Assembly (NCBI GenBank): GCA_030680795.1
Contig: JAUXUL010000031.1
Location: 1 to 64,000 of the forward strand
Length of the DNA: 64,000 bases
Source of the DNA: Anaerolineales bacterium
Lineage (GTDB): Bacteria; Chloroflexota; Anaerolineae; Anaerolineales; Villigracilaceae
Direction: 5' to 3'
Shown here: piece by piece, positions 20 through 50,846 of the stretch
Layout of the letters: each line of letters starts with the position of its first letter
How positions within the stretch are numbered: position 1 is the stretch's first letter
Notes under the pieces: generated by a model
The model's database searches: none
Told to the model about the DNA's origin: nothing
The model's input: the letters and a program-made list of their open reading frames with translations, nothing else
Program-made: the position numbers and the translations under genes

Positions 20-115
20 AGACCCTAAAGGTTTTTCTGTCAGATTGGGTACTTTGCTGGCAAAATACGCTGTTCGACAAGATAATTTGGCCAGCGAGGG
101 AAACCTTTAGGGTCT
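20..115. repeat. Inverted repeat agaccctaaaggttt ... aaacctttagggtct (15-bp arms, 66-nt spacer)
   Basis: Arms read directly at 20-34 and 101-115; the same core occurs as a palindrome inside leuS (30605-30638). Confidence 0.85.
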
Positions 116-9301: not shown

Positions 9302-11122
9302 ATGACTACCCTCAGTACCCCTGCAGAATTTACTCTGCATCGAAAAAATAAATATGACCAATCCTCACCTGTGCGGTGGATCCTGTCACACATCCGCCCA
9401 TATTCGTGGATCGTGGTGATGATGATCCTCGGCGCAATTGGCAATGCCGTGCTGGCGGCGGTGGTGCCGGTGCTGACAGGCGATGCCTTCAACGCCATGC
9501 TGGAAAGTCCGCCCAAAACTTCGGTGTTGCTGCCGCTGGCATTGACCATCGGGTTTTCGCAGATCATTCGCGGTGTGCTGCAGCTCGGGCGAAACTTCGG
9601 CGCGGAGTTGATGGCGCAAAAGATAGAGCGCGACATTCGTGACGAGTTGTATCTTTCCCTGCTCGGCAAGAGCATGACCTTCCACAACCTTCAGCCTGTC
9701 GGCGATACGATGGCGCGTTCCACCAATGATGTGCGCGAAGTGAACTACATGTTCAGCCCGGGTGTGAACCTGGTGGTCGGTTCGTTCATGTTCATTCTCA
9801 TGCCGATCTTTTTTGCGCCGCGCTATCACCCTGCGCTCATCATTACCCCGCTCATCTTCACCGTCTTCTATTTTGTGGCGCTGGCGGGGTATCTCAAACA
9901 ACTGTCGCCGATCACGGATGAAGTCCGTTCGACGTTTGGCGCGATGAACACGCATCTCTCCGAGTCGCTGGATGGCGTGGAGATCATGAAGGGCGCGGCG
10001 CAGGAAGGCGCGGAAGTGGAACGCTTTGTCGTCAACGCGCGCAAGGTCCGTAATGCGTTTGTGCTGCAGGGCGATCTCGAAGCGAAATATATTGCCATGC
10101 TGCTGTTGGGGCTGGCGTATGCAGGCGGACTTGTCCACGCGCTCTTTCTCTTCCGCGCGGGGCTGATCAACGTCGGCGCGGTGGTTGGCTACTTTGGCAT
10201 GTTGCAGCTTTTGGGTTTCCCAACCTTTACCTCCACCTGGGCATATTCCCAGATCTCTTCAGGACTTTCCTCCGCCCGCCGCATTTTGGAGTTGATCCAG
10301 CGCGAGACGCTCCTTGACCAAAACGCCTCCGGCCGCACCTCGGAACTGCGCGGCGAGATCGAATTTCGCGGCGTCTCTTTCCATTACCCTCACCCCCTGC
10401 CCCCTTCGACAGGCTCAGGGCAACGCCTCTCCCCGGGAGAGAGGGGGGCAGGCGACAACGTGCTTGAAAACATTTCCTTCAAGGTCAAGCCTGGTCAAAC
10501 AGTAGCCATTGTCGGGCAGACGGGCGCGGGCAAGACCTCCCTCGTCAAGTTGATCAACCGCACCTACGATGTTTCCTCAGGTCAGGTTCTCGTCGATGGC
10601 GTGGATGTGCGCGCTTGGAACCTCGCCTCCCTGCGCGAGCAGATCTCCATCATCGAGCAGGATGTTTTCCTGTTCTCGCGCTCCCTGCGCGATAACATCG
10701 CTTTTGGCAAACCTGACGCAACCCGTGAGGAAGTCATCGCTTCCTCCATCGCCGCGCAGGCCCATGATTTCGTCCTCGACTTCGACCAGACCTACGAGAC
10801 GACTGTCGGCGAACGCGGCGTGACCCTCTCCGGCGGACAAAAGCAGCGCATCGCACTCGCCCGCGCCTTTCTCACCGACCCGCACATTCTCGTGCTGGAT
10901 GATTCCACCTCCGCCATCGACTCTGCCACCGAGGATAAGATTCAGCGCGCCATCTCCAACGCCGCCCGCGGGCGCACAACCTTCATCATCACCCACCGCC
11001 TCTCACAGATCCGCTGGGCCGATCTGATCATCGTCCTCCGCAAGGGACACATTGCCGCCATCGGCTCACACGATGAGTTGATGCAGACCTCCGAGGCGTA
11101 TTCGAGGATATTCAGGGAGTGA
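9302..11122 (+). CDS. ABC exporter, fused TMD-NBD (partner of 11234-13048)
   Basis: Walker A GQTGAGKTS, signature LSGGQKQR, Walker B ILVLDDSTSAID. Confidence 0.95.
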   Translation: MTTLSTPAEFTLHRKNKYDQSSPVRWILSHIRPYSWIVVMMILGAIGNAVLAAVVPVLTGDAFNAMLESPPKTSVLLPLALTIGFSQIIRGVLQLGRNFGAELMAQKIERDIRDELYLSLLGKSMTFHNLQPVGDTMARSTNDVREVNYMFSPGVNLVVGSFMFILMPIFFAPRYHPALIITPLIFTVFYFVALAGYLKQLSPITDEVRSTFGAMNTHLSESLDGVEIMKGAAQEGAEVERFVVNARKVRNAFVLQGDLEAKYIAMLLLGLAYAGGLVHALFLFRAGLINVGAVVGYFGMLQLLGFPTFTSTWAYSQISSGLSSARRILELIQRETLLDQNASGRTSELRGEIEFRGVSFHYPHPLPPSTGSGQRLSPGERGAGDNVLENISFKVKPGQTVAIVGQTGAGKTSLVKLINRTYDVSSGQVLVDGVDVRAWNLASLREQISIIEQDVFLFSRSLRDNIAFGKPDATREEVIASSIAAQAHDFVLDFDQTYETTVGERGVTLSGGQKQRIALARAFLTDPHILVLDDSTSAIDSATEDKIQRAISNAARGRTTFIITHRLSQIRWADLIIVLRKGHIAAIGSHDELMQTSEAYSRIFRE

Positions 11123-11229
11123 TCAGTGGACAGTGGACAGTAATCAGTAAACAATATGATGACCTGTCACTGATACACTGTTCACCGATTACTGATCACT
11201 GATTACTGATTACTGATTACTGGACACTA
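11119..11229. repeat. Degenerate 7-nt-period array (tgattac/agtaatc type)
   Basis: ...gattactgatcactgattactgattactgattactggacac. Confidence 0.75.
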
Positions 11230-13059: not shown

Positions 13060-13255
13060 AATGTGTCACCCTCCCGAAGAGCACACCGCACTGGCGTACG
13101 GCGCAAGTGTCGGGACGATGTGAGGGAGCGTTCCCTTCGACAAGCTCAGGACAGGCTTTGCGACCGGAGGGTCTCGCTCGCAGAGTTGGAGATTCTCACC
13201 GCACTGGCGCGCGGCGCAAGTGTCGCTCCGCTCAGAATAAGGTGTTACATATAAA
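13060..13255. repeat. Mosaic repeat block containing two copies of the ccgcactggcg..gcgcaagtgtc module and one ttcgacaagctcagg module
   Basis: Modules read at about 13087-13112, 13131-13153 and 13199-13224. Confidence 0.75.
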
Positions 13256-28117: not shown

Positions 28118-28149
28118 GTCCTTCGACTACAGGCTTCGCTCAGGACGAT
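28118..28149. repeat. Repeat tgtccttcgactacaggcttcgctcaggacgat
   Basis: Same flanking halves occur inside the kinase CDS at about 8206-8253. Confidence 0.75.
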
Positions 28150-28183
28150 GAATCTCGATGACAACAACCATAATGAGGTAAGA

Positions 28184-31117
28184 ATGGCTACTACGAAAAA
28201 GAAAGAAATAAAGAAGAAAGAAGTCAAGAAGAAATCAACCGCAACGGCAACCAAGCCCGCGGTGAAGAAAGTCGTGGCAAAGAAAGTTGTGAAGGCTGCA
28301 AAGCCCGCGGTTAAAAAAGTCGCTGCAAAGAAGCCTGCGAAAAAGACTGTTGCGAAAAACGCCCCTCTAACAACAGCGGCCAGGAAACCCGCTGCGACAA
28401 AATCTTCGAAGGCGATTGAGCCTGTGAAGGAAATGGCTGTGATGGATCCGCCTTCTCCGCGCAGGGGAATTATGCCCAAGACCGAGCCGGTCAAAGCGGT
28501 TGTGCTTGTGAAGGAAAAGCCAAAGGCAATCATGCCTGCAAGAGAAACTGTGAAAGAAAAACCGCAGGCAAAGGATAAATCCTATAACCCACAAGCCATT
28601 GAGAAAAAATGGAAACAGAAATGGGAAGCGGACAAGTTGTATCGCGCAGTGATTGATACATCCAAGCCGAAGCATTACGCGTTGACCATGCTTCCCTATC
28701 CCAGCGGCGACTTGCACATCGGTCACTGGTATGCGATGACGCCTGCGGATGCGCGCGCGCGCTACATGCGTATGAGGGGCTACAACGTATTGTTCCCCAT
28801 GGGCTTTGATGCGTTCGGTCTGCCCGCGGAGAATGCCGCCATCAAGGAAGGCATTCACCCGATGAAGCGCACGTTCGAGAATATCGAACACATGCGTACT
28901 CAGATGAAGACCATGGGCGCGATGTTCGATTGGGAACGCGAGACTGTATCTGCATCGCCCGAATACTACAAGTGGACGGAATGGTTCTTCATCCAATTGT
29001 TTAAGGCTGGTCTGGCATATCGCAAGATGTCTGCCGTAGATTGGTGCCCGCATTGCAATACGACATTGGCGCGCGAGCAGGTCTGGGGCGATGACCGTCA
29101 CTGCGAACGCTGCGGCACGCCTGTGATCAAAAAGGATTTGGACCAATGGTTCTTCAAGGCAACCCAATATGCCGATGAGTTGTTGAAATTCGACGGTATT
29201 GACTGGCCGCAGACGGTCAAGACTTTGCAGACAAATTGGATCGATCGCTCTGAAGGCGCGGAGGTCTTTTTCCGCCTGGATTGGGAATCGGTCGTTGGGA
29301 AAATGGGAATCCAGGAGCAGGGCATGGGGACTGAAGACGGCCCTACACCTGAATCACAAGTGATGATCCCTGTCTTTACCACACGTCCTGATACGTTGTG
29401 GGGCGCAACGTTTATGGTCTTCTCGCCTGAACATCCGCTGGTGAACAAGATCACCACGCCCGAGAATAAAGCCGCGGTCGAAGAATATAAGGCGCAAGCC
29501 GCGCGTCAAACGGATATTCAACGCGGCGCTGTGGACAAGGAAAAGACGGGTGTATTTACGGGCGCGTATGCGATCAACCCTGTCAATCAGGAGCGCATTC
29601 CAATTTGGATCGCGGACTATGTGATGATGTCTTACGGCACGGGAGCGATCATGGCTGTGCCTGCGCACGACGAACGCGATTTTGCTTTTGCCAAAAAGTA
29701 TGAACTACCCATCGTCCCAGTGATCCAGCCCGAGCGCAGTCCCGAAGCGAAGGGTGAGACGATGGAAGCCGCTTATGTAGGACCCGGCGTCATGGTCAAC
29801 TCAGGCGAATTCTTCAACGGGACTCCAGTCAATACAGAAAAGGGACGCAAGAACCCTGCCATCAGCGCGGTCATCGATTGGCTGGAACCGCAGGGCATTG
29901 GCAAGGAGTCAGTGAACTACCGCTATCGTGATTGGTTGATCAGCCGCCAGCGTTATTGGGGCGCGCCGATCCCGATGATCTACTGCGAGCAACACGGATG
30001 GAACCCTGTGCCTGAAGATCAATTGCCTGTGCTGTTGCCCGAAGATGTTGAATGGAAACCAACGGGCGAGAGCCCATTGAAACTGCATCCGACATGGAAG
30101 AACACAACCTGCCCAGTGTGCGGCGAACCTGCCACGCGCGAAACCGATACGATGGACACGTTCATGTGCTCGTCGTGGTATCACCTGCGTTATCTGTCGC
30201 CGAAATATGATCAGGGTCCGTTCGATCCAGCCGAGTACGATTACTGGATGCCTGTTGATACATACACGGGCGGCATCGAGCACGCCACCATGCACCTGCT
30301 GTACACGCGCTTCTTCCACAAGGCGCTGCGCGACGCGGGCATTGTCAAAGGTGACGAGCCGATGATGCAGTTGCGTAATCAAGGCATGGTGCTGGGCGAA
30401 GATAACGACAAGATGTCAAAGAGCAAGGGCAATGTGGTGGCTCCCGATGTGCTGGTGGACAGGTACGGCGCGGACAGTGTGCGCGCCTATATCATGTTCT
30501 TTGCGCGATGGGAAATGGGCGCGCCGTGGGACCCGCAAGGCATTGAGGGAGCCGTGCGTTGGGTACGCCGCGTGTGGACGTTGTTCACCGATCCTGTTCC
30601 CGATAGACCTTTAGGGTCTTCGGAGACCCTAAAGGTCTTAAGAAGAAAGGTTCACCAGACCCTGCGCAAGGTGACACATGACTTCGAGAACTTTGAATTC
30701 AACACGATCATTTCCTCATTGATGGAGTTGATGAATGAAATGTACAAGGCCCGTGAAGCCGGCGCGGCACGCGCAACCACGGAATGGTCAGAAGCACAGG
30801 ATATCTATTTGAAGATGATGGCTCCTATCACACCGCACATCGCAGAGGAACTGTGGTCACAGTTGGGCAAGCGGTATTCCATCCACCAACAATCCTGGCC
30901 GCAAGTGGACGAAGCCGCCACGAAAGAAGACTCCATCGAGTTGCCCGTTCAGATCAACGGCAAGGTACGTGACAGGATCACTGTCCCTGCGGAGGCCACA
31001 GAGGACGAGATCAAGTCCGCTGCGCTGGCGAGTGAAGTTGTCCAGAAGTATCTGGAAGGCAAAGAGCCAAAGAAAGTGATTGTGGCGAATCGGCGCTTGG
31101 TGAGTATAGTGGTGTAG
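28184..31117 (+). CDS. leuS: Leucyl-tRNA synthetase with Lys/Ala-rich N-terminal extension
   Basis: PYPSGDLHIGHWYAMTPADARARYMRMRGYNVLFPMGFDAFGLPAENAA; KMSKSKGN; start MATTKKKE at 28184. Confidence 0.97.
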   Translation: MATTKKKEIKKKEVKKKSTATATKPAVKKVVAKKVVKAAKPAVKKVAAKKPAKKTVAKNAPLTTAARKPAATKSSKAIEPVKEMAVMDPPSPRRGIMPKTEPVKAVVLVKEKPKAIMPARETVKEKPQAKDKSYNPQAIEKKWKQKWEADKLYRAVIDTSKPKHYALTMLPYPSGDLHIGHWYAMTPADARARYMRMRGYNVLFPMGFDAFGLPAENAAIKEGIHPMKRTFENIEHMRTQMKTMGAMFDWERETVSASPEYYKWTEWFFIQLFKAGLAYRKMSAVDWCPHCNTTLAREQVWGDDRHCERCGTPVIKKDLDQWFFKATQYADELLKFDGIDWPQTVKTLQTNWIDRSEGAEVFFRLDWESVVGKMGIQEQGMGTEDGPTPESQVMIPVFTTRPDTLWGATFMVFSPEHPLVNKITTPENKAAVEEYKAQAARQTDIQRGAVDKEKTGVFTGAYAINPVNQERIPIWIADYVMMSYGTGAIMAVPAHDERDFAFAKKYELPIVPVIQPERSPEAKGETMEAAYVGPGVMVNSGEFFNGTPVNTEKGRKNPAISAVIDWLEPQGIGKESVNYRYRDWLISRQRYWGAPIPMIYCEQHGWNPVPEDQLPVLLPEDVEWKPTGESPLKLHPTWKNTTCPVCGEPATRETDTMDTFMCSSWYHLRYLSPKYDQGPFDPAEYDYWMPVDTYTGGIEHATMHLLYTRFFHKALRDAGIVKGDEPMMQLRNQGMVLGEDNDKMSKSKGNVVAPDVLVDRYGADSVRAYIMFFARWEMGAPWDPQGIEGAVRWVRRVWTLFTDPVPDRPLGSSETLKVLRRKVHQTLRKVTHDFENFEFNTIISSLMELMNEMYKAREAGAARATTEWSEAQDIYLKMMAPITPHIAEELWSQLGKRYSIHQQSWPQVDEAATKEDSIELPVQINGKVRDRITVPAEATEDEIKSAALASEVVQKYLEGKEPKKVIVANRRLVSIVV
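30605..30638. repeat. Perfect 15-bp palindrome with tcgg loop inside leuS
   Basis: agacctttagggtct-tcgg-agaccctaaaggtct. Confidence 0.92.
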
Positions 31118-50551: not shown

Positions 50552-50574
50552 GCATACTGAGTCTGTAAACAATT

Positions 50575-50648
50575 TAGCCACGGATTACACCGATTTTCAC
50601 GGATAAATTCAATAAATCCGTGTTCATTCGTGAACTCTGTGGCTAAAA
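50575..50648. repeat. Inverted repeat tttagccacgg...cacggat...atccgtg...ctgtggctaaa
   Basis: Nested complementary arms read directly downstream of clpC. Confidence 0.65.
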
Positions 50649-50739
50649 TATTAAGAACGCTTTTATAAAAACAAACTCAACTGCGAAAGACTAATCTCGG
50701 GGTGTGTCATGTTTTATTAAGTGACCTTACGCACCCAAT

Positions 50740-50846
50740 TGTGATTCCCTGAGCGGAGCGAAGCGTCTCTACTGCTGAAATACGAGATGCTCACCGCACT
50801 GGCGCGCGGCGCAAGTGTCACTGCGCTCAGCATGACACTGCGTAAG
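50740..50846. repeat. Composite repeat with module ccgcactggcgcgcggcgcaagtgtc
   Basis: Module at about 50794-50819, identical to the copy at about 13199-13224. Confidence 0.75.

Follow-up and report, generated by a model that had tools for sequence, protein, structure and literature searches.

Dispersed palindromic elements of Rickettsia and Wolbachia are found between genes and inside them, where they stand in frame in protein genes (PMC3767692, PMC10969869), and the Rickettsia palindromic elements (RPEs) are given as ~100-150 bp (PMC3767692, PMC10969869). Possible hotspots have been suggested for both genera from different elements in the same gene region, and the choice between random landing with subsequent filtering and preferred landing places was left open for intragenic palindromic repeats (PMC3767692). 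GTAG/CGTC REPs are palindromes of 20-40 bp, mostly intergenic, with some intragenic copies including ones in tRNA synthetases; different REPs occupy about the same recB site in two Xanthomonas species, and GTAG repeats have been reported in Chloroflexi (PMC3733652). Mitochondria of Nematomorpha have coding palindromes of up to 284 bp, both arms of which encode conserved protein parts (PMC6649704).

Here we analysed a 64,000-nt stretch of an Anaerolineales genome (contig JAUXUL010000031.1, positions 1 to 64,000; hereafter the window), whose leuS gene carries a perfect palindrome in frame, together with genomes of the same bacterial family. Our results are best explained if a short copy of a dispersed palindromic repeat replaced loop codons of leuS and was tolerated there as near-neutral DNA, a reading that we consider probable. 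No earlier description of this repeat sequence was found in the papers searched, where the two text matches were plant and human papers.

The leuS palindrome and the loop that it encodes

An inverted-repeat search resolved the leuS palindrome to 30605-30638 as AGACCTTTAGGGTCT-TCGG-AGACCCTAAAGGTCT, with 15-nt arms that are 100% complementary and a 4-nt loop. The perfect 15-bp palindrome reported in the preliminary description is thus real, the span of 30596-30650 given there taking in its flanks. In the leuS frame it reads DRPLGSSETLKVL (RPLGSSETLKV(L)). The LeuRS, which had been called apparently intact, indeed has a 989-aa ORF with the Pfam domains tRNA-synt_1 (catalytic), tRNA-synt_1_2 (editing) and Anticodon_1. 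The features are as follows.

28148..31117, + strand: leuS, leucyl-tRNA synthetase, 989 aa, intact (ORF, Pfam domains and PDB LeuRS matches)
30605..30619, + strand: left arm AGACCTTTAGGGTCT, encoding RPLGS, predicted inter-helix loop (structure model)
30620..30623, no strand assigned: hairpin loop TCGG, 4 nt
30624..30638, + strand: right arm AGACCCTAAAGGTCT, encoding ETLKV, predicted start of the next helix (structure model)
30641..30643, + strand: Arg codon AGA, codon 215 of the query, linked to the palindrome (Fisher p 8e-11)
20..34, + strand: left arm of a 96-nt inward long-form copy (core matches, inverted-repeat search)
101..115, - strand: right arm of the same 96-nt inward long-form copy (core matches, inverted-repeat search)

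Within the window, perfect arms of at least 15 nt with loops of at most 10 nt were centred at 6 places, but 12 Markov-simulated windows yielded no such case, a difference which indicates that palindromes of this size are not due to chance, yet are not unique in this genome. The LeuRS also has a Lys/Ala/Pro-rich N-terminal extension of ~140 aa (window 28148-28600), the catalytic domain beginning at ~residue 155.

The C-terminal 372 residues (29999-31114) were modelled from six sequences, with a mean pLDDT of 61 and values of 66-91 per ten-residue block over residues 181-280. In this moderate-confidence model one helix ends at residue 197 and the next starts at 208 after a loop, so that the left arm is predicted to supply the loop residues RPLGS and the right arm the opening turns, ETLKV, of the following helix. 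Non-carriers have the native helix start E-T-[K/L]-[K/R]-x-L-R-R-K, and by alignment the E. coli LeuRS has six more residues in the loop. A left arm coding for loop and a right arm coding for a helix start, in one frame, would explain why the palindrome is tolerated.

A dispersed repeat family in three arrangements

The palindrome shares its arm, AGACCCTAAAGGTYT, with a repeat family dispersed through the genome. The arm core AGACCCTAAAGGT has four exact matches in the window (20-32, 103-115, 30607-30619 and 30624-30636) and, with up to 2 mismatches, five matches versus 0.6 expected in shuffles. The 12-mer core GACCCTAAAGGT occurs 26 times exactly in the 3.45-Mb genome, compared with 2 for the reversed control, in agreement with the dispersed element proposed beforehand. 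It was clearly in excess in many genomes of the bacterial family, and 42 of the 61 searched hold at least one copy.

Members of the repeat family occur as inward hairpins of 33-34 nt, as an inward long form of mostly 94-96 nt, and as outward palindromes like that in leuS. The preliminary description had also seen the core in a spaced inverted repeat at 20-115. The two sites do have common arms, but in different arrangements: the pair at 20-115 points inward (AGACCCTAAAGG...CCTTTAGGGTCT, 66 nt between) and that in leuS outward (CCTTTAGGG...CCCTAAAGG). The long form was found in 41 of 152 family genomes, with 77 matches in one of them, and 45 distinct copies were examined. Their 15-nt terminal inverted arms are conserved; the interiors have no coding capacity and a nearly fixed length of ~65 nt, with a median identity of 0.60 versus 0.58 for shuffles.

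Within the window genome, 6 of the 26 distinct sites are covered by ORFs of at least 100 aa. Recognisable genes among these are leuS and an acyl-CoA synthetase (two ORFs scanned), while the other four ORFs, of 117-177 aa, may be spurious. The acyl-CoA synthetase (NDP-forming) holds the second in-frame copy of this genome in its interdomain linker (G000:C38:40386-40418, L024), and this copy is common to the window species and one relative (G054), as QTLKVSETLKVSE and QTLKVSETFRVSE. That linker varies strongly across the genus and has repeated-looking peptides, for example HRPSSIV, in other relatives. Further in-frame copies in relatives lie within or between the domains of Tex, hydantoinase B, a helicase, an aldehyde ferredoxin oxidoreductase (AFOR), an alpha-2-macroglobulin and an Fe-S protein.

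Other repeats were also observed. Elsewhere in Chloroflexota (L117, L118, L132, L141), the 15-nt unit is found in arrays with 3-nt spacers (18-nt period) or in 92-nt repeats, in both orientations. The window contains two 50-nt repeats that are 92% alike (13189-13238 and 50784-50833) and have a REP-like CGCTCAG at the end, nested inverted repeats of AGTGGACAGT / ACTGATTACTG units at 11118-11228, and, at 50568-50652, an imperfect palindrome with 42-nt arms and CACGGATT motifs, which resembles ACGGAT repeats in the leuS linker of other species.

Replacement of loop codons and routes to the loop

We compared leuS across ~90 genes of the bacterial family, most of the genomes being MAGs. Of 152 family genomes, 8 gave an exact pattern match of the right arm at the same leuS codons, one more (G060) has it there with a one-base change, and further genomes have partial forms. 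The tree set comprised 8 full and 4 partial carriers, all with the copy in these codons and together spanning five genera (g1, g3, g14, g15 and g17), which contradicts the lineage-specific status first proposed. A quick tree search on one 1-kb region of leuS, linker excluded, gave 7 changes of carrier state for full carriers and 11 with partials included, and a single carrier clade was rejected (p-AU 4.6e-6). The rejection of a vertical single origin on this tree holds unless losses or transfers were frequent. The distribution is patchy. The palindrome is absent from G409, the sister of the window species (support 100), and another sister pair, G034 and G014 (support 100), differs likewise.

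The preliminary description expected an insertion of about 12 aa, but linker codons 199-219 number 21 in the window species, the same as in the palindrome-free G409, whose codons there are different. The linker measures 20-21 codons in 10 of 12 carriers; the mode among non-carriers is 20, and most have 20-22. These lengths rule out a lineage-specific 12-aa insertion. Synonymous agreement among full carriers was 0.80-0.92 in codons 199-213 and mostly 0.5-0.7 outside; in codons 214-216 it was 0.39 between carriers versus 0.14 between carriers and non-carriers, and beyond codons 199-216 carrier agreement equalled or slightly exceeded the carrier versus non-carrier level. The first base of codon 215, an Arg/Lys codon, is A in 10 of 12 carriers versus 1 of 82 non-carriers (Fisher p 8e-11). 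The unchanged length, the agreement limited to the palindrome and ~2 codons downstream, and codon 215 together point to a stretch of ~13 codons of foreign make. These results indicate that the repeat took the place of loop codons with no net length change. At ~0.9 within the palindrome and 0.5-0.7 over most of the flanks, synonymous agreement speaks for DNA derived from an element rather than for a conserved peptide, and its confinement to the palindrome gives no sign of whole leuS gene transfer.

The same loop holds other repeats in other species. CTTCGACTACGCTC (PSTTLRSAQ) lies in the leuS linker of G007 (10 genome copies) and G052 (5; control 0), and ACGGATTCACGGAT (TDSR...) in that of G435 (17 genome matches to the pattern) and G391 (3; control 0). 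With dispersed repeats unrelated to the present family in the same place, the loop is a recurrent landing site.

On the reading that we prefer, a short, two-arm copy with arm AGACCCTAAAGGTYT would have taken the place of ~11-13 codons in a loop that tolerates changes in length and connects two helices beside the anticodon-binding region. It would be tolerated because this one frame turns the left arm into loop residues (RPLGS) and the right arm into ETLKV, a near match to how the native helix begins. The copy presumably has no cellular function and would persist as near-neutral repeat DNA. Its arrival was probably by templated replacement, guided by microhomology or recombination, rather than by cut-and-paste transposition, with a dispersed copy or the leuS of another species as the likely template. 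Target-site duplication was looked for in 45 long and 12 short copies and not detected, with observed values about those expected at every length; a MITE with target duplication is thus ruled out by 57 copies. Y1 transposase genes were present in 14 of 14 genomes, many-copy or not, single cores lay near 2 of 30 Y1 loci, and no arms consistently flanking Y1 (RAYT) genes were found at the 30 loci. The microhomology signal was weak, with a median of 16 better-matching sites among ~2,200 per gene, and in 6 of 83 genes no site matched better than the actual one, which makes microhomology a poor candidate as sole guide. Exact searches found no outward copy outside leuS in any carrier, which means that no direct donor is visible within the carrier's own genome. 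The leuS copies also have a common 4-nt loop, register and A-first codon 215 that are absent from dispersed copies (dispersed outward loops are mostly 3 nt), which suggests some leuS-to-leuS exchange or shared descent. We therefore consider two routes: dispersed copies may have supplied the template for a fresh replacement, or species may have exchanged very short tracts of leuS.

The second route, taken alone, is the strongest rival: leuS would have acquired the element once or a very few times long ago, and short-tract homologous recombination would then have spread the linker between species, with repeated losses and with dispersed copies as the first donor only. We regard this as a serious possibility, though somewhat short of probable. 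It would account for the common register, 4-nt loop and A-first Arg/Lys codon 215 (10/12 vs 1/82), for the leuS copy being the only outward one that exact searches found in carriers, and for the xxPD before and TTAAGAAGA after the palindrome that three g1 carriers on separate branches have in common. However, the agreement ends ~2 codons off the palindrome, which is very short for homologous recombination; one carrier (G015) has a different, 21-nt loop, and another (G398), with a shortened copy, retains native upstream codons alongside the element.

Local arm-to-arm correction, in which replication template switching repeatedly makes a half or imperfect leuS copy perfect without changing its length, is unlikely as the explanation. 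It fits the absence of net length change and the forms seen in some relatives: G413 has an exact right arm and a left arm that matches at 10 of 15 positions, and G424, G432 and G358 have intermediate forms. Yet it leaves unexplained the origin of a 15-nt arm common to the rest of the genome, and the intermediates are equally readable as decaying copies. The half copy of G413 and the shortened copy of G398 could represent either in-frame decay or correction intermediates. G413 also bears on the PLGSSETLK segment, for which the preliminary description had weighed protein-level conservation in distant relatives that lack the palindrome. G413 encodes KPLASSETLKVL with its left arm unmatched, so that such conservation is seen in part; its right arm is exact, however, and G413 therefore reads as a half or decayed copy. 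Our estimates for templated replacement, short-tract spread and arm correction are not exclusive, since each describes its own way for the same repeat DNA to arrive in the loop.

A broader proposal, which we hold to be improbable as it stands, makes the LeuRS loop a site of active exchange: in one bacterial family, a templated process that preserves length, rather than a target-duplicating transposase, would write repeats of several unrelated palindromic families into the same twelve or so codons, and would likewise make the 94-96 nt long forms. Selection for a functional RNA hairpin in leuS mRNA, acting in attenuation, stability or pausing, is very unlikely. As RNA the palindrome is very stable (-25.6 kcal/mol, z -5.0), and it is perfect in several distant species, but most relatives, the sister species among them, lack it, in others it has decayed, unrelated repeats stand at the same place, and the hairpin has no Rfam match. 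Finally, a conserved native peptide with DNA palindromic by chance is less likely still: the native E-T-[K/L]-[K/R]-x-L-R-R-K of non-carriers and the similar peptides of G413 and G005 without the full palindrome speak for it, but the full 15-mer is the dispersed arm, the Leu codon is CTA in 12 of 12 carriers and not among the common codons there in non-carriers, and synonymous agreement ends at the palindrome.

Comparison with known palindromic repeats

Judged by description, the family is close to the Rickettsia and Wolbachia elements. The leuS family is a dispersed, hairpin-forming palindrome with in-frame copies in real protein genes, one of them essential and intact, and the analogy with Rickettsia palindromic elements drawn at the outset is therefore apt. 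The differences are that its copies in genes are 33-34 bp (34 bp in leuS) and its long form 94-96 bp, against ~100-150 bp for RPEs; that it occurs in Chloroflexota, not Rickettsiales; and that it replaces a loop without lengthening it.

With GTAG/CGTC REPs the family has in common a short form of 33-34 bp, within the 20-40 bp range of those palindromes. Unlike them, it has no GTAG or CGTC tag, its ends being AGACC/GGTCT with flanking bases not conserved, and its arms are near-palindromic in themselves. At the 30 Y1 transposase loci, flanking copies were limited to single cores at 2 of them. Such repeats are present in Chloroflexota beyond the tagged REP classes. The long form (94-96 nt) is MITE-like in its 15-nt terminal inverted repeats and lack of coding capacity, but its 45 distinct copies are without target-site duplication, its interiors are almost unrelated at a fixed length, and a non-exhaustive search found no autonomous partner. 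The coding palindromes of Nematomorpha are likewise perfect inverted repeats in functional protein genes; the leuS palindrome differs in being a copy of a short repeat with dispersed members and in occupying a loop that varies.

A loop peptide that looks 'conserved', PLGSSETLKV for one, can in fact stem from repeat DNA, which is a warning for the interpretation of such peptides. One loop of an essential enzyme is readable here across ~90 species, so that twelve carriers, and several carriers of other families, allow landing, decay and tolerance to be traced at the level of single bases. In-frame palindromic repeats are already known; compared with the Rickettsia and Wolbachia elements, what is new here is the recurrent use of one loop by several unrelated repeat families across one bacterial family, with replacement.
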